The notes beneath the pieces are model-generated. The model was not told where the DNA came from, searched no databases, and saw nothing but the letters and a program-made list of their open reading frames with translations. This document shows, piece by piece, positions 4,756 to 33,033 of a stretch of DNA of 64,000 nt. Location of the stretch: positions 1 to 64,000 of the forward strand of contig NZ_NRQU01000010.1 of assembly GCF_004119495.1 (NCBI RefSeq), written 5' to 3'. Origin of the DNA: Flavobacterium sp. YO12 (GTDB taxonomy: Bacteria; Bacteroidota; Bacteroidia; Flavobacteriales; Flavobacteriaceae). The position numbers were made by a program, and so were the translations under genes. Position 1 is the stretch's first letter. Every line of letters begins with the position of its first letter.

Positions 4756-6723
4756 TTATTGGAAGAAATTCCAAACTAAACCAAATCGCAATACAAAATC
4801 ACGATAAGGATTGTTAGGCGCCGAATAATAATCGCTTTTTGCGAAAAGAGCATTTATATGTTCTGCTTTTAGATAAAAACGCGTCTGACGAATTCTTGCG
4901 TTTATAAAAAGATCAAAAAGTGGATAATTTCCAATCTCTTTACTGTTTTGAACAAAAAACTCTCCAACAACTGGATTATATCCATTACCATAATATTTTG
5001 TAAAATAATTAAAAACAACACCTGCTTGTGCAAATAATGCTTTCTTAAAAAAGTGATTTGAATAATAGAATGTGTTTCTTGTTACAAAATCAGGTACATT
5101 TAAAATTAAATCAGATTGATCTACTTTCTGATACAGAAGAGTATTATCTAATGCAAATTTCCCAAATTTAAATTCTTTGCTTGCTTTTATTTCTAAATAA
5201 TTAATAGCGTTTCCGTACTGCTCTGGATTTATAATTTGTGTTTGGGCTAATACTTGAGCTGGAGTTGAAACATCTTTAAAATACAAATGATCATTTAAAA
5301 CTGTATACTGAACCTCGGCATTTAACCAAGGTGTATATACGCTGGCTCCAAGCGTATTGATTTTTTCGTTTTTAAAATCATTCGACCAGTTGTATTGTAC
5401 ATAACTGCTTTGATATAAATTGTAATTATTGTTTGGCAGTTTATTTACGTTTCTATATTTAAAATCGAACTGGATTTTCTCATTTAAATTATATCGTAAT
5501 TTTGCGTCAAGATCAGAAAGTGACTGGTTAGTGATAGATCTTGTATATAAAAAACGGCCATTCCATTTATTCTTTTGATATTCATATTGCCCACCTACAT
5601 TATTGATCTGAAGAAACAAATTATCAGGAATCACTCCTCCTGATTTATCAACTAAAATTCGATCGTATTTGTAATTTGATCTGTAATCGTCTACAAAAAA
5701 ATTAAACTTTCCTAAGAGAGAATTTTCATAAGCCAATCCAACTTTATTGTACAATCTTTCAAAATGAGTTTGATCATTTATACCACTTGTGGTATATGAA
5801 GCTCCAAAACGCTGCACTTGCTGTCCATCAACAGTCGAAAGAACAGTAGGCTGGTTGTATTCGAAAAATTTATTTTCGAAGTTAAACTGATGATTTATAT
5901 ATAAATTATTATTTCCGTTCTTTGGATTCACTCTGAAGGCATGGTCAAAAAACAACCTTTTCCCTTTCAAAAAAGATTTTGCATCTGTCAGGTAAACTTG
6001 TAATCGCTGACGATTTTTAAAATCTGGATTATCACTTTCAAAATCCTCTGGTGTGGTAATACCTCCATTTTCTTCGTTTGAATTATCTTGAAAAGTAAAG
6101 TGTGCATTTAAAGCATATCTTCTATCTGTTGTTGCATAACTTGTAGTAAATCTAAAATTTCCTGAACTTACTAACTGATTTATATAATCTCCTTCTGAAC
6201 GTAATCCTCTATACGCAATAGAGAAATTAAGGTTTTTTGAGGTATTTAGAGTAATAAACGAGTCTACATTTTGTCCTTTATTAATTGTTGTATTAAAAAA
6301 CAACTCTGTTACAGGGGTCGCTGCCGAATAGTATCTAATATCATCTGCCTGCAAATAATTATAGTGCATTGCCGAAAAGCCAATCTCTGGATAAGGAGAA
6401 AAACTAGTTAAACTGTATTGCAAAACATTTAAAGGCTGTCCAATATTTGAAAATTCCAACAGTCCAAAAAGATCTTTTCGAAGATGATTTTGTTTGTATG
6501 CGCTTTTTATTGTTAATGATGTATCTACATAAGTAGTATCATGCTCTAGAGTAATAATCTGGTATTGATCTATTTTAGCAATTTTCGCCTTCGTCTTTTT
6601 AACAGTGTCTGTTATACTTGAATATTTTGAATTCATATCTAAACTACTTTTTGAAGTAGTCTTTTCTTGAGAAAACAATAAGGTTGGTATAATTAATAGA
6701 TATAGAAAAATGAATATTCTCAT
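4756..6723 (-). CDS. Putative outer membrane porin (Porin_10 family)
   Basis: A 655-residue secreted protein with a signal peptide (MRIFIFLYLLIIPTLLFSQ) and a long body of alternating strands rich in Asn, Tyr and Phe. It ends in an aromatic strand (RFGLVWNFFQ), as outer membrane beta-barrels do. I recognise it as the putative porin family common in Flavobacteriia. The first 80 residues after the signal are polar (KTTSKSSLDMNSKYSS) and may form a periplasmic lead-in. It has its own -7 promoter element and is followed closely by the PLP enzyme gene. Substrate unknown. Confidence 0.8.
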   Translation of the reverse strand: MRIFIFLYLLIIPTLLFSQEKTTSKSSLDMNSKYSSITDTVKKTKAKIAKIDQYQIITLEHDTTYVDTSLTIKSAYKQNHLRKDLFGLLEFSNIGQPLNVLQYSLTSFSPYPEIGFSAMHYNYLQADDIRYYSAATPVTELFFNTTINKGQNVDSFITLNTSKNLNFSIAYRGLRSEGDYINQLVSSGNFRFTTSYATTDRRYALNAHFTFQDNSNEENGGITTPEDFESDNPDFKNRQRLQVYLTDAKSFLKGKRLFFDHAFRVNPKNGNNNLYINHQFNFENKFFEYNQPTVLSTVDGQQVQRFGASYTTSGINDQTHFERLYNKVGLAYENSLLGKFNFFVDDYRSNYKYDRILVDKSGGVIPDNLFLQINNVGGQYEYQKNKWNGRFLYTRSITNQSLSDLDAKLRYNLNEKIQFDFKYRNVNKLPNNNYNLYQSSYVQYNWSNDFKNEKINTLGASVYTPWLNAEVQYTVLNDHLYFKDVSTPAQVLAQTQIINPEQYGNAINYLEIKASKEFKFGKFALDNTLLYQKVDQSDLILNVPDFVTRNTFYYSNHFFKKALFAQAGVVFNYFTKYYGNGYNPVVGEFFVQNSKEIGNYPLFDLFINARIRQTRFYLKAEHINALFAKSDYYSAPNNPYRDFVLRFGLVWNFFQ

Positions 6724-6765
6724 TTGATAATGTTATATAAAATTATTTCGGCAAAATTTGTCGAA

Positions 6766-6773
6766 CAAAGGTA
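6766..6773 (-). promoter_or_regulatory. Bacteroidota -7 element upstream of the porin gene
   Basis: Read on the minus strand this is TACCTTTG, an exact TAnnTTTG match, 43 bases before the porin ATG. I see no TTG at the usual upstream spacing. Confidence 0.55.
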
Positions 6774-6844
6774 AAAGATAAAAACGTATAAACGAAAAAA
6801 ACAAAATGTTAGTATAGCCGCATTTTTATAACCGCTTCTAAAAT

Positions 6845-6878
6845 GAAAACCCCGTTTACAAACGTAAACGGGGTTTTC
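6845..6878 (-). terminator. Terminator of the susD-like gene
   Basis: A perfect 15-bp stem (GAAAACCCCGTTTAC with its complement) around the 4-base loop AAAC. It lies about 125 bases past the end of the minus-strand susD-like gene and upstream of the porin promoter, so it separates the two units. Confidence 0.75.
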
Positions 6879-7001
6879 AAGAAAATCAAAATATTTATTG
6901 TTTCTGTAAAATAAACTTAATGTGGACGATTACTTTAATTTTCTACTAGTTTTTAAATCTTTCAAAAATTAGAAATCCCATTAAACTAAATTTACAATTT
7001 A

Positions 7002-8477
7002 TTATAGTTCGTTCTGCTTAACTAGTGGATTTGCATTGATCTCTGCTCTAGGGATCAACCATTGCCATCTTTTATCTGTTGCAGGAACATTGATTACGTT
7101 GTTTGTGATCGTTGAATTATGATTAGCTCCAGATCTATCAAGAGGAGAATTTGTTCTCTTTAAGTCATAAAATCTAAAACCTTCTCCCCATAATTCAATT
7201 CTTCTTTGAAACCAGATTTCATCAACTAAAGCTTGTCCTGTTTTTGTAGACAAAGTATATCCAGTATCTCTTGTTTTTACTAGAGCAAATAATACAGCAG
7301 CTGCATCAGCTTGCCCTAATCTTGCTTTTGCCTCTGCTTCGATAAGGTACATCTCAGCAACACGCATATAAGGAACATCACATCTACTATCACCAGTACT
7401 TACAGATAAGAATTTTTGACTTGTGTAAGGGTATTTAGTAAAAGAGCTTGGAAGATTCAGCGAAGCATGCACTCCCGTTTTATCAAATAACTTTGAACGT
7501 ACATCCGTTGTAGGAATCAAATTATAAAGTTTACTATTAATTGCCTTTGGACATGTACGAATAACTGTTGAATTGTAATTTCTAGACATGTAAGCTCCAA
7601 AATTACCAAAATAATCTGTTTGAACTTCATTAATATGGCTTCCCCACATCCATTCTTTACCAGCGTAGTCATTAAACCCTTTTACATATTCTTCAGCATT
7701 CATTAATGCAATACCTGTTTTAGCTTTAGCAGCATAATCTGCAGCAATAGCCCAATTTCCTTGAGTTAATGCAACTCTAGCTTTTAAACCTTGTGCTACA
7801 CTTAAACCTAAATGAGAATTATTTGGTTTTGTATAACCTACTAATAAAGTATTTGCTTCATCTAGATCTTTATTGATTTGTGTGTAAACTTGTTCAACAG
7901 TTGAACGAGCAAAACCCTCATTACCAACTACTAAAACTAACGGCACTCCCAATTGCGAGTTATCAACTCCATTAACATATCTTTTTCCAAACAATTGAAC
8001 CAATTGATAGTGACAAAATGCTCTATACAATAAAGCTTGACCTTTTAAAACCTTTTTATCAGCATCTGGGCCTATTGTTGTATCTACTGCACCAAGGATA
8101 GTGTTTGCATTTCTAATTATTCTATAATAAGTACGGTACGGAAATCTAACATCTTGAGCATTCTCGTTTGCGACACCATTCCAGTTGTAAACTTGCAAAA
8201 ACCATCCATTAGTAGCAGGAAAAACCACATCATCTCCAGCAATATCAACTTGCTGCATCATTCCTCCTAAACCGTTCTCATTCTGATTACTTTCATATCT
8301 AATATACAATGATCTGTGTATACCATTTAAAAGCGTCATTAAATCGTCTGTCGTTTTAGTAATATCCTCATAAGTAACATATTCCGTAGGCTTTTTATCT
8401 AAAAAATCGTCTGAACATGAAGAGAGTACCAATAACGATATTGCGAAAAATATCTGTTTTATATAATTTGATTTCAT
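7002..8477 (-). CDS. SusD/RagB family nutrient-binding outer membrane lipoprotein
   Basis: A 491-residue SusD-like lipoprotein. The signal peptide ends in a lipobox (LVLSSC, Cys21), followed by DDFLDKKPTEYVT, the classic SusD start. TPR-like helices follow, and the C-terminal part has the family hallmark of an aromatic, basic segment (IWFQRRIELWGEGFRFYDLK) and a closing WLIPRAEINANP. SusD proteins sit on the cell surface and cap the partner SusC pore, capturing oligosaccharides or peptides. The gene lies 11 bases downstream of susC, so the two are cotranscribed. No glycoside hydrolase, sulfatase or sigma/anti-sigma pair is nearby, so the substrate cannot be guessed. Confidence 0.95.
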   Translation of the reverse strand: MKSNYIKQIFFAISLLVLSSCSDDFLDKKPTEYVTYEDITKTTDDLMTLLNGIHRSLYIRYESNQNENGLGGMMQQVDIAGDDVVFPATNGWFLQVYNWNGVANENAQDVRFPYRTYYRIIRNANTILGAVDTTIGPDADKKVLKGQALLYRAFCHYQLVQLFGKRYVNGVDNSQLGVPLVLVVGNEGFARSTVEQVYTQINKDLDEANTLLVGYTKPNNSHLGLSVAQGLKARVALTQGNWAIAADYAAKAKTGIALMNAEEYVKGFNDYAGKEWMWGSHINEVQTDYFGNFGAYMSRNYNSTVIRTCPKAINSKLYNLIPTTDVRSKLFDKTGVHASLNLPSSFTKYPYTSQKFLSVSTGDSRCDVPYMRVAEMYLIEAEAKARLGQADAAAVLFALVKTRDTGYTLSTKTGQALVDEIWFQRRIELWGEGFRFYDLKRTNSPLDRSGANHNSTITNNVINVPATDKRWQWLIPRAEINANPLVKQNEL

Positions 8478-30971: not shown

Positions 30972-31511
30972 ATGAAAACATTCAAATTAGTTCCGATTTT
31001 TCTGCTATTGATCTTAAGTTCATGCAGCAGTGTTACTGTATATTCTGATTACGACAAAAGTGTCGATTTTGCGCCTTATAAAACGTATGCTTTCTTTAAA
31101 CCTGGAATTGATAAAGTCGAAATTTCTGATTTGGATAAAAGACGTATTCTTCGTGCAATCGATCAACAAATGCAAGCAAAAGGATTTACAAAAAGTGATA
31201 ATCCAGACTTATTGGTAAACATTTTTACCAAATCTAGAGAGCAAGTTGATGTAAATCAATTTAGCGCCGGCTGGGGTTATGGCTGGGGATGGGGATGGAA
31301 TCCTTATATGATGTACGGCGGAAACCAAACTACCGTTTCTACTTCAACTGAAGGAACTTTATACATCGACCTAATTGATGCAAAAAAGAAAGAAATGATC
31401 TGGCAAGGTGAGGGAATTGGTGTTTTAACTAGAAACATTGATAAAAAAGATGAGCGAATTGCAGAATTTGTAGGCAAAATTTTAGCTCAATATCCTCCTG
31501 TAAAAAAATAA
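30972..31511 (+). CDS. DUF4136 domain lipoprotein
   Basis: A 179-residue lipoprotein (lipobox LILSSC, Cys18). The rest is a DUF4136 domain, a beta-rich family of envelope proteins without known function. Typical features are YSDYDKSVDFAPYKTYAFF after the cysteine and MIWQGEGIGVL near the end. A Gly/Trp-rich loop (GWGYGWGWGWNPYMMYGG) lies in the middle. The promoter of the ilvA leader overlaps its last codons. Confidence 0.85.
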   Translation: MKTFKLVPIFLLLILSSCSSVTVYSDYDKSVDFAPYKTYAFFKPGIDKVEISDLDKRRILRAIDQQMQAKGFTKSDNPDLLVNIFTKSREQVDVNQFSAGWGYGWGWGWNPYMMYGGNQTTVSTSTEGTLYIDLIDAKKKEMIWQGEGIGVLTRNIDKKDERIAEFVGKILAQYPPVKK

Positions 31512-31516
31512 TTATT

Positions 31517-31524
31517 TACTTTTG
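31517..31524 (+). promoter_or_regulatory. -7 element of the ilvA leader transcript
   Basis: TACTTTTG is an exact TAnnTTTG match 20 bases before the leader-peptide ATG. It begins just after the stop codon of the DUF4136 gene. Confidence 0.65.
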
Positions 31525-31544
31525 CTATTCAATTAGTATAAAAA

Positions 31545-31604
31545 ATGACAAACTTTAACAACATTATCATCGCTATTATCAGCATTATTGCAATTCAGCA
31601 ATAA
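31545..31604 (+). CDS. Isoleucine-rich leader peptide of ilvA
   Basis: A 19-codon ORF encoding MTNFNNIIIAIISIIAIQQ. Eight of its 19 residues are isoleucine, in clusters of three, two, two and one. It lies between a promoter and an intrinsic terminator upstream of ilvA, whose product makes the first intermediate specific to isoleucine. This is the layout of classical attenuation: with scarce charged tRNA-Ile the ribosome stalls and the terminator does not form. It was not in standard ORF calls because of its length. No experiment supports it here, but the composition is very unlikely by chance. Confidence 0.85.
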   Translation: MTNFNNIIIAIISIIAIQQ

Positions 31605-31608
31605 TGGC

Positions 31609-31670
31609 GAGGTGTTATATAAGTATGTAAAATATAATTATAAGAACCTCCCACATTGGGAGGTTTTTTA
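31609..31670 (+). terminator. ilvA attenuator (antiterminator and terminator)
   Basis: The terminator stem is AACCTCCCA (31645-31653) with TGGGAGGTT (31657-31665), loop CAT, followed by a T-rich run. The GAGGT at 31609-31613, 5 bases after the leader stop codon, can instead pair with ACCTC inside the 5' arm (31646-31650). A ribosome at the stop codon would cover GAGGT and let the terminator form; a ribosome stalled on the Ile codons would not. Confidence 0.8.
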
Positions 31671-31690
31671 TTTTAAGAATAATTAAAAAG

Positions 31691-31773
31691 TCGCCACGAA
31701 TTACACAAATTAGCACGAATTTTTATAGACAGCATCTAAAATAAAATTAGTAGAAATTCGTGTAATTCGCGGC
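31691..31773. repeat. GCCACGAATTACAC inverted repeat before ilvA
   Basis: Arms at 31693-31706 and 31760-31773 are complementary with one mismatch. The element lies between the attenuator and the ilvA start. The same family occurs as two tandem copies at 36409-36667. Confidence 0.6.
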
Positions 31774-31788
31774 AAAAAAACAAACAAT

Positions 31789-33033
31789 ATGAGTTTATTC
31801 AACGAAATCCTTAATGCAAAAAAGCAGCTTGAAAATGTAGTTGCTGCGACGCCTCTTACCCAAAATTTAAATCTTTCAGACGAATTTAAATCGACTATTT
31901 TATTAAAACGAGAAGATTTACAAATCGTACGTTCTTATAAAATCAGAGGTGCTTACAATAAGATTTCTTCCTTAACTGAAAAAGAAAAAGTAAACGGAAT
32001 TGTTTGTGCCAGTGCAGGAAATCACGCTCAAGGCGTTGCTTATTCTTGTAATTTACTGCAAATAAAAGGCAAAATTTACATGCCAAAAACTACTCCAAAA
32101 CAAAAAGTAAAACAAGTGCAATTGTTCGGGAAATCGTTTGTAGAAATTGTTTTAACAGGAGATACTTTTGATGATGCTTATGCTTCGGCAACGGCAGATG
32201 CTATCAAGAATCACAAAACATTTATCCATCCTTTTGATGATGAAAAAGTAATTGCCGGACAGGGAACTGTAGGTTTAGAAATTCTAGAAAGCTATAAAGA
32301 ACCTATAGATTATGTTTTTGTGCCCATTGGCGGCGGCGGACTGGCTTCTGGATTGTCTGAAGTTTTTAAACATTTAAGCCCAAATACTAAAATCATTGGC
32401 GTTGAACCAAAAGGCGCTCCTTCGATGAAAACTTCTATTGAGGAAAATAAAAATACAGCCTTAAAAACAATAGATAAATTTGTTGATGGTGCCGCTGTAA
32501 AACAAGTTGGCGATAAAACTTTTGAAATCTGCCGTTATAATCTTGAAGATATTATTCTGGTTCCAGAAGGAAAAGTATGCACAACCATTTTACGTTTATA
32601 CAATGAAGAAGCGATGGTTGTAGAACCTGCGGGTGCATTAACAATTGCTGCGCTGGATTTTTATAAAGATAAAATAAAAGGAAAAACTGTGGTTTGCGTT
32701 GTCAGCGGAAGCAATAATGACATTGAAAGAACTGCCGAAATAAAAGAGCGCTCACTGCTTTATGAAGGTTTAATGCATTATTTCATGATTCAATTTCCAC
32801 AGCGTCCGGGAGCTTTAAAGGAGTTTGTAAACAACATTTTAGGTCCGGATGATGATATTACTTATTTTCAATTTGCTAAGAAAAACAGCCGAGAAGTAGG
32901 ATCTGTTGTGGTTGGTTTAGAGTTGAAAAACAAAAAAGATATTATGGCTATCAAAATGAAAATGACGCAATATGGGTTTGAATTTCAATATTTAAACGAC
33001 AATCAGGATTTGTTTACGCAGCTAATTGGGTAA
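31789..33033 (+). CDS. ilvA: Threonine dehydratase
   Basis: The enzyme deaminates threonine to 2-oxobutanoate, the committed step to isoleucine. In this 414-residue form the PLP lysine is in IVRSYKIRGAYNKI, the cofactor loop is CASAGNHAQGVAYS, and the phosphate-binding glycines are IGGGGLASGL. The C-terminal ~80 residues (from about 330, YFMIQFPQRPGALKEFVNNI) form a single ACT-like regulatory domain, as in short biosynthetic forms, implying feedback by isoleucine. An Ile-rich leader and attenuator precede it, which supports the biosynthetic rather than catabolic role. No other ilv or leu genes are in the window. Confidence 0.94.
   Translation: MSLFNEILNAKKQLENVVAATPLTQNLNLSDEFKSTILLKREDLQIVRSYKIRGAYNKISSLTEKEKVNGIVCASAGNHAQGVAYSCNLLQIKGKIYMPKTTPKQKVKQVQLFGKSFVEIVLTGDTFDDAYASATADAIKNHKTFIHPFDDEKVIAGQGTVGLEILESYKEPIDYVFVPIGGGGLASGLSEVFKHLSPNTKIIGVEPKGAPSMKTSIEENKNTALKTIDKFVDGAAVKQVGDKTFEICRYNLEDIILVPEGKVCTTILRLYNEEAMVVEPAGALTIAALDFYKDKIKGKTVVCVVSGSNNDIERTAEIKERSLLYEGLMHYFMIQFPQRPGALKEFVNNILGPDDDITYFQFAKKNSREVGSVVVGLELKNKKDIMAIKMKMTQYGFEFQYLNDNQDLFTQLIG

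Follow-up and report, generated by a model that had tools for sequence, protein, structure and literature searches.

A predicted isoleucine leader-peptide attenuator ahead of ilvA in Flavobacterium, with serial counterparts at other ilv loci

In a stretch of 64,000 nucleotides from Flavobacterium sp. YO12 (contig NZ_NRQU01000010.1, hereafter the window), the segment lying between a DUF4136 gene and ilvA is predicted from its sequence, with a probability of about 0.93, to be a ribosome-mediated transcription attenuator which senses charged tRNA-Ile and controls ilvA. Attenuation of this kind is a textbook class of mechanism, and ilvA is the committed step to isoleucine. The reading is supported by the parts that are present, their conservation, their spacing, their mutually exclusive predicted pairing and the match between leader codons and pathway; from these we infer the transcription start site, the stalling of the ribosome, its coupling to RNA polymerase, the efficiency of termination and the response to isoleucine. 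The sequence-level marks of a leader-peptide attenuator were found in the unit, namely an ORF rich in codons for the pathway product, a terminator, a 2:3 pairing exclusive of that terminator, a region 2 placed in the ribosome footprint, and conservation in relatives. The features of the locus are as follows, in window coordinates.

30972..31511, + strand: DUF4136 gene, upstream neighbour (PF13590, 171.7 bits; stop codon 31509-31511)
31517..31524, + strand: putative promoter -7 box TACTTTTG (TAnnTTTG), Bacteroidota-type, read from the sequence
31545..31604, + strand: leader ORF of 19 codons and TAA, MTNFNNIIIAIISIIAIQQ, 8 Ile codons
31602-31604, + strand: UAA stop codon of the leader
31560..31616, + strand: predicted 1:2 hairpin (MFE fold of 31527-31672), with an inner stem of 31583-31591 with 31598-31606 and outer arms of 31560-31565 and 31570-31573 with 31607-31616 (GAGGT inside)
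31606..31621, + strand: region 2, GGCGAGGTGTTATATA, core GAGGT at 31609-31613
31646..31652, + strand: region 3, ACCTCCC, 5' arm of the terminator and predicted partner of region 2
31658..31664, + strand: region 4, GGGAGGT, 3' arm of the intrinsic terminator
31664..31669, + strand: U-tract of the terminator (T6)
31642-31668, + strand: stem of the terminator hairpin, scored with 12 pairs (about 31642-31669 with the T-tract)
31789..33033, + strand: ilvA, threonine ammonia-lyase with C-terminal regulatory domain, the putatively regulated gene

The identity of ilvA was established by NCBIfam NF006390 (631.9 bits, cut-off 421) and by the Pfam domains PALP and Thr_dehydrat_C, and its protein is 100% identical to the ilvA products of F. 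plurextorum and F. oncorhynchi in the named genome collection. Isoleucine is encoded at leader codons 7-9, 11-12, 14-15 and 17, and GAGGT, which begins 7 nt past the first base of the stop codon, is complementary to the ACCTC of region 3. In a scan of 501 nt, two terminator-like sites were obtained (0.2 expected), these being the leader hairpin and its reading on the other strand, and 119 nt (31670-31788) separate the T-tract from ilvA. The elements listed in the original prediction (an ORF with eight Ile codons, a stop codon, GAGGT, a terminator and ilvA) were all found where it had placed them, and its promoter is present in the Bacteroidota sense, as the TAnnTTTG box at 31517. The 1:2 hairpin, in which leader codons pair with region 2, was absent from that list. 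The DUF4136 gene is a syntenic anchor of the attenuator and stands outside the attenuator proper.

The window Ile unit is not a product of chance. Counting every nested start, the two strands of the window contain 926 small ATG ORFs, and the leader ORF is alone among them in having at least 7 Ile and at least 40% Ile, while 20 dinucleotide shuffles of the window, taken on both strands, gave no such ORF and no Ile attenuator; under a looser Ile/Leu/Val rule the 20 shuffles gave 2 attenuator-like matches. When the window was scanned for units enriched in one amino acid of whatever kind, two further matches (Lys and Leu) came up, with region-2 complements of 0 and 4 nt respectively versus 5 nt at the Ile unit. 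The fold of the leader RNA (-36.5 kcal/mol, z = -5.1) was matched by none of 200 shuffles. In the Rfam scan of the window, none of 4227 families (T-box, Bacteroid-trp and others) reached its gathering score, and with one unit present the window holds no tandem attenuator array.

Retention of an Ile-rich ORF and a terminator upstream of ilvA across Flavobacterium had been proposed as a check of the original prediction, and the check was passed, since leader and terminator were found ahead of ilvA in 100 of 112 loci of the genus (94 distinct sequences). For this count, a leader was called where an ORF no longer than 30 codons contained 5 or more Ile, making up at least 30% of its residues, and a terminator followed within 75 nt. 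The 112 loci, which include the window's own, were drawn from 61 Flavobacterium genomes, that of the window among them, from the top 80 of 150 matches in the named collection and from five genus members of the phylum search, and some species are in both sources so that they do not amount to 112 independent lineages. L028 and L029, which are not ilvA (identities of 29.2 and 27.9%), and L030 (without a tblastn match) were removed before counting, and the units of L108, L014, L015 and L016 were recovered by a search reaching beyond 420 nt. Across the sampled Flavobacterium genomes, some of them incomplete, ilvA at 66% identity or more is present in 27 of 61, and isoleucine synthesis may often be lost in the genus.

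The twelve misses are of several kinds. At six loci (L020, L023, L024, L026, L027 and L144) ilvA lies directly behind ilvC, the identity of which was confirmed by KARI domains in longer stretches from these genomes, and at two (L022 and L097) the contig ends, leaving 172 and 118 nt of upstream sequence. The attenuator has been lost in L007 and L059, which are identical over 1500 nt and thus represent one upstream sequence, and L021 has an altered leader of 25 residues with 7 Ile (28%), under the threshold, with the usual terminator behind it. In L143 the promoter box and GAGATGTT are kept and the GGTTTTT terminator is absent, which looks like decay. The C-terminal DUF4136 motif Q[FY]PP...stop, sought by pattern search only, lies upstream of 99 of the 100 attenuators. 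As the distance from hairpin to ilvA runs from 16 to 643 nt, it is the leader unit that is conserved and not its spacing to the gene. Outside the genus, no Ile leader was seen up to 450 nt from ilvA at any of 50 loci (L112-L139, L145-L166), and in 20 longer stretches, of which 6 come from Flavobacterium genomes with ilvA behind ilvC and 1 from the genome of L143, ilvA usually stands at the end of an ilv operon.

Within 64 aligned leaders, the share of minority bases across the Ile-rich codons rises from 0.032 to 0.070 and 0.118 at codon positions 1, 2 and 3 respectively, and the Ile codons are 375 ATT, 109 ATC and 9 ATA. The 51 distinct ilvA leader peptides contain 386 Ile, 9 Val and 31 Leu; length ranges from 16 to 20 aa across relatives and the non-Ile residues are variable, in agreement with the predicted pattern of retained Ile codons among drifting neighbours. 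The purine core of region 2 begins at an offset of 7 nt, counted from the start of the stop codon, in 58 of 64 leaders (10 nt in 4, 8 nt in 1 and 6 nt in 1). Given the usual ribosome footprint, region 2 would be covered by a ribosome at the stop codon and left exposed by one that has stalled at the last Ile codon. The suggestion that GAGGT sits where a terminating ribosome would mask it is consequently borne out by the +7 offset in 58/64 leaders, taking the footprint at its generally accepted size, and this geometry, the retention of Ile and the conservation in 100/112 loci together support the attenuation reading first proposed for the locus.

Three alternative pairings are predicted in the leader RNA, with mean energies over 64 relatives of -17.3 kcal/mol for 1:2 (codons 6-16 of the leader against the stop region plus region 2), -10.5 kcal/mol for 2:3 (GGCGAGGTGTTATATAA with TTATAA...ACCTCC) and -14.7 kcal/mol for 3:4 (the terminator). 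In the MFE structure of the 2-3 segment, region 2 pairs with region 3 in 64/64 relatives, the weakest of these folds having -7.7 kcal/mol; since the mean stability of 2:3 is below that of 3:4, the model requires 2:3 to form first. Paired cells in the 64 relatives amount to 93.6% (1:2), 93.0% (2:3) and 99.1% (3:4) versus 27-77% for slid partners. In the ilvA set, of which the sequences are too similar for more, neither 1:2 nor 2:3 shows covariation beyond column shuffles and 3:4 shows a weak signal (17/500 shuffles), and the helices are therefore not supported beyond conservation. In 73 distinct units from ilv operon heads, which are not independent events because related units share both parts, region 2 pairs with its own terminator arm at a mean of -9.24 kcal/mol versus -6.90 (sd 0.23) kcal/mol in an arm-swap control, with 0/200 swaps as good, and the CCTTC class (33 units) and the CTGTATC class (12 units) each favour their own class by 3-4 kcal/mol.

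In the proposed mechanism, RNA polymerase would start a few bases past 31524 and a ribosome would enter the leader of 19 codons. When isoleucine is scarce, the ribosome would stall on the Ile codons and open 1:2, leaving region 2 free to pair with the ACCTC of region 3 before region 4 exists, whereby the terminator would be blocked and ilvA transcribed. When isoleucine is plentiful, the ribosome would reach the UAA at 31602-31604 and cover region 2, so that 3:4 could form and transcription would stop at 31664-31669. Without translation, 1:2 would sequester region 2 and again leave 3:4 free to terminate.

Leaders ahead of other biosynthetic genes of the same genome were compared with the ilvA leader. 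The product of ilvA serves isoleucine alone and that of ilvD isoleucine and valine. The ilvD operon has its own unit with the leader MQNSIIITSVIVVNVVITSAKGML (5 Ile and 5 Val), and 17 distinct ilvD leaders of the genus contain 96 Ile, 81 Val and 17 Leu, these peptides being drawn from 18 of 20 loci with L202 and L215 (heads of ilvE-ilvD operons) and nested starts omitted. As both the ilvA and the ilvD sets were chosen by Ile or Ile/Leu/Val rules, it is the contrast between them that is informative. In the genus sample, an ilvD leader was detected at 20/30 loci and none at 10/30. The leader of hisG, MISNQLHHHHFHYCSQAMC (HHHHFH), is followed by a terminator (L404, 27-87 nt before hisG terminator), and a trp leader, MKTIMNNTWWWKNLRQTS (WWW), lies under a match to Rfam Bacteroid-trp (RF01692, 71.6 bits in this genome, cut-off 49) before a trpE-like gene, the best NCBIfam match of which is trpE TIGR00564 at 443.8 bits, below the cut-off of 517.7. 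With Ile for ilvA, Ile/Val for ilvD, His for hisG and Trp for trpE, the leader codons follow the pathway product. The predicted 2:3 fold has -6.0 in the trp unit and a weaker -5.2 in the second Ile unit of the genome, and in short folds of the ilvD and his leaders this pairing was not seen; the ilvD segment folded began after GGGAATG, which is likely to be region 2 of that leader. No Leu leader was seen by eye before leuA of this genome, and no leader was found under the detection rules at its aspartokinase loci.

The sigma-70 promoter scan gave no site at the window leader, for which reason TAnnTTTG, which we take to be the -7 promoter consensus of Bacteroidota, was used instead. The box TACTTTTG is the sole + strand match to it listed between about 31002 and 32000. 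In this genome the distance from such a box to the leader is 25-29 nt for ilvA, ilvD, the second ilvA and trp and 43 nt for his; among 94 distinct relatives, 93 have the box 24-39 nt ahead of the leader start codon, the sole exception being L015, where the second of its two units had been picked. A -33 TTG element is not enriched in the relatives (29/93 versus 39/93 in a control window). These positions bear on a very improbable alternative, in which the hairpin would only terminate the DUF4136 gene, ilvA would have its own promoter downstream and the Ile ORF would be incidental. The hairpin does lie behind the DUF4136 gene, and the 119 nt after the T-tract would give such a promoter room in the window; in 13 of 94 relatives, on the other hand, the stem ends 16-37 nt before ilvA, which leaves little space for one. 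A TAnnTTTG box was found between terminator and ilvA in two relatives (L004 and L061) as that alternative would have it, and is absent there in 92/94, while the common retention of leader and terminator (100/112) speaks against an incidental ORF. With the box regularly before the leader, rarely after the terminator, and with these short gaps, a separate ilvA promoter downstream of the terminator is in general unlikely.

It is likewise very improbable that the Ile-rich ORF serves to make a small hydrophobic membrane peptide with a function of its own, toxin-like or trans-regulatory, and that the RNA structure is secondary. Its product is hydrophobic and conserved, and a leader peptide acting in trans has been reported elsewhere (PMC7298713, in the part available); however, the residues change with the pathway from Ile (ilvA) to Ile/Val (ilvD), His (hisG) and Trp (trpE), the ORF keeps a near-fixed distance from region 2, and both its length (16-20 aa) and its non-Ile residues drift. 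The strong ribosome-free fold (z = -5.1) would suit a leader RNA read by a ligand or a protein (riboswitch, T-box or RNA-binding protein) instead of by a translating ribosome, a reading to which very little probability is given, as no Rfam family reaches its gathering score in the window, the coding ORF is kept with changes increasing towards the third codon position, and region 2 lies inside the footprint of a terminating ribosome. Attenuation by the translating ribosome remains the preferred reading.

The pattern ACCTC..GAGGTTTTT occurs at 13 places in the genome (3 for a reversed-pattern control), two of which have an Ile leader, namely ilvA and ilvN'-ilvA'. The latter locus (L111, G000:C76:8000-19397) is on the - strand, with a leader at 8299-8352, an ilvN-like gene at 7483-8007 and an ilvA-like gene at 6160-7458. 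Its leader MNTQINIFIIINSIIII contains 9 Ile and is followed by a terminator ACCTCCC..GGGAGGT as at the window ilvA. The ilvA-like protein is 57% identical to ilvA and carries, by eye, the altered motifs SDGNHAQG and EGDGLAAG, and the ilvN-like protein passes TIGR00119 (62.2, cut-off 56.9).

A single ilvA had been described as the attached gene, which holds in the window and fails in three relatives (L014, L015 and L016), where ilvA stands behind an ilvN-like gene and both are preceded by a series of two Ile-dominated units. In L014 and L016 a unit of the window type is followed, 16 and 15 nt past its stem respectively, by a second unit with a different terminator (AAGCCTTTCTC...GAGAAAGGCTT), and in L015 the two units are 9 nt apart (stem end to next ATG). 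Each of their leaders has between 6 and 10 Ile, at most 1 Leu and at most 2 Val. As the paired units of the three loci are not separated by a -7 box, they should be read in series. The intervening proteins match the ilvN-like protein of L111 at 29-39%, that of L015 falling below the NCBIfam cut-offs and having no Pfam match; to judge from these matches, the intervening gene is distantly related to that for the small subunit of acetolactate synthase. The DUF4136 motif is found upstream of the units in L015 and L016, and none was seen in L014.

Serial units also occur at other ilv operon heads in the family and phylum. In 224 such sequences (754,411 nt), which count some genomes twice, 105 distinct forward detections were made versus 8 raw reverse ones, and two or three units in series were found in at least 15 of the 89 distinct heads with any detected unit. 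These tandem counts are lower bounds because the detector misses L015, L180 and L187, with two or three units each; it also admits some doubtful units (L300). One mixed unit and two nearly identical Ile units are present in L181, and further serial heads, such as L187, L193, L292 and L354, have Ile or Ile/Val leaders. At least one unit was detected at 13/60 ilv loci of the phylum sample (14 forward versus 0 reverse detections) and at 31/88 of the family sample (37 forward versus 3 reverse).

It is an evenly balanced proposition that the ilv attenuators of Bacteroidota are partly serial, AND-like gates and that the window unit is the survivor of an ancestral array. Under serial reading, transcription would have to pass two or three terminators, each under its own Ile or Ile/Val leader, and simultaneous stalls in several leaders would be needed, which would make for a sharpened, AND-like starvation gate. 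The simplest history would be an ancestral order of DUF4136, unit 1, unit 2, ilvN-like gene and ilvA, from which unit 2 and the ilvN-like gene were lost in the clade of the window; their gain in the other lineages is a possible alternative. The serial arrays raise the quantitative question of what a second like sensor contributes.

In enterobacteria, the ilvGMEDA, ilvBN and his operons have short leaders with regulatory codons, 1:2, 2:3 and 3:4 alternatives, a terminator and a region 2 that is masked by the terminating ribosome. The leader, the three alternatives, the terminator and the masking are thus common to those systems and the window unit as predicted. The window leader differs in that Ile is its only branched-chain residue, whereas the ilvGMEDA leader of E. 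coli is mixed for Ile, Val and Leu, and, unlike the enterobacterial systems, the window has a promoter box of the Bacteroidota type. Among the matches listed in the open-access literature, no description of an ilvA attenuator in Bacteroidota and none of tandem leader attenuators for the same amino acid was found. Vitreschak et al. in 2004 are said to have predicted attenuators in Bacteroidetes/Chlorobi.

For Flavobacterium psychrophilum, 'strong clues' to leader-peptide attenuation upstream of amino-acid operons were described in 2021 (PMC9723704, available portion), conserved structured elements being named there upstream of pheA and of hisG, the latter in Flavobacteriaceae; genus and mechanism class are the same as for the window unit. 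The words 'ilvA' and 'isoleucine' do not occur in the main text of that article as available, and no leader anatomy was found in it; nor is the ilvA case treated in the available portions of PMC4833913 or PMC2965389. The ilvA unit is new and well supported, its mechanism class and the flavobacterial clues being already known. The Bacteroid-trp RNA RF01692, listed in PMC2864571 (partial text), is likewise a cis-regulatory leader of Bacteroidetes and differs in its Trp pathway and its hairpin, with no match in the window. Within the same phylum, long 5' UTRs of Bacteroides thetaiotaomicron contain small ORFs reminiscent of attenuation leader peptides, the example given in the accessible text preceding a gene for a hypothetical protein and being unvalidated there (PMC7366714). 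The Salmonella mgtCBR leader mRNA, with two short-ORF attenuators sensing ATP and proline (PMC3641672, excerpted text), resembles L014-L016 and some ilv heads in its tandem arrangement; its attenuators sense different signals, whereas within an ilv series the leaders share some or all of their predominant branched-chain residues.

With four pathway-matched leaders in one genome, reporters in F. johnsoniae could be used to test transcription-translation coupling in Bacteroidota, and the leaders of ilvA and ilvD are a ready-made pair for comparing specificity. Strain CI04 of F. johnsoniae, a laboratory soil species, has the ilvA leader found in the window (L033). Attenuation of this type requires a ribosome closely behind RNA polymerase.

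Between the terminator and ilvA, an inverted repeat of about 85 nt (window 31689-31773, GTCGCCACGAATTACACAAATT ... AAATTCGTGTAATTCGCGGC) was observed; stretches like CCACGAATT are present at the same place in many relatives and resemble a dispersed repeat, and the repeat could add a further control ahead of the window ilvA. Elsewhere in the genome (L167, G000:C8:54249), a Met/Cys-rich small ORF, MKTTVCNMMSCKMPELSAEILL, starts 95 nt before a terminator, ACCTCTGC..GCAGAGGT, which is preceded by GCAGAG after the ORF and lies 66 nt before a gene for a TonB-dependent receptor (Plug domain); this unit is possibly a Met/Cys or metal-linked leader attenuator.
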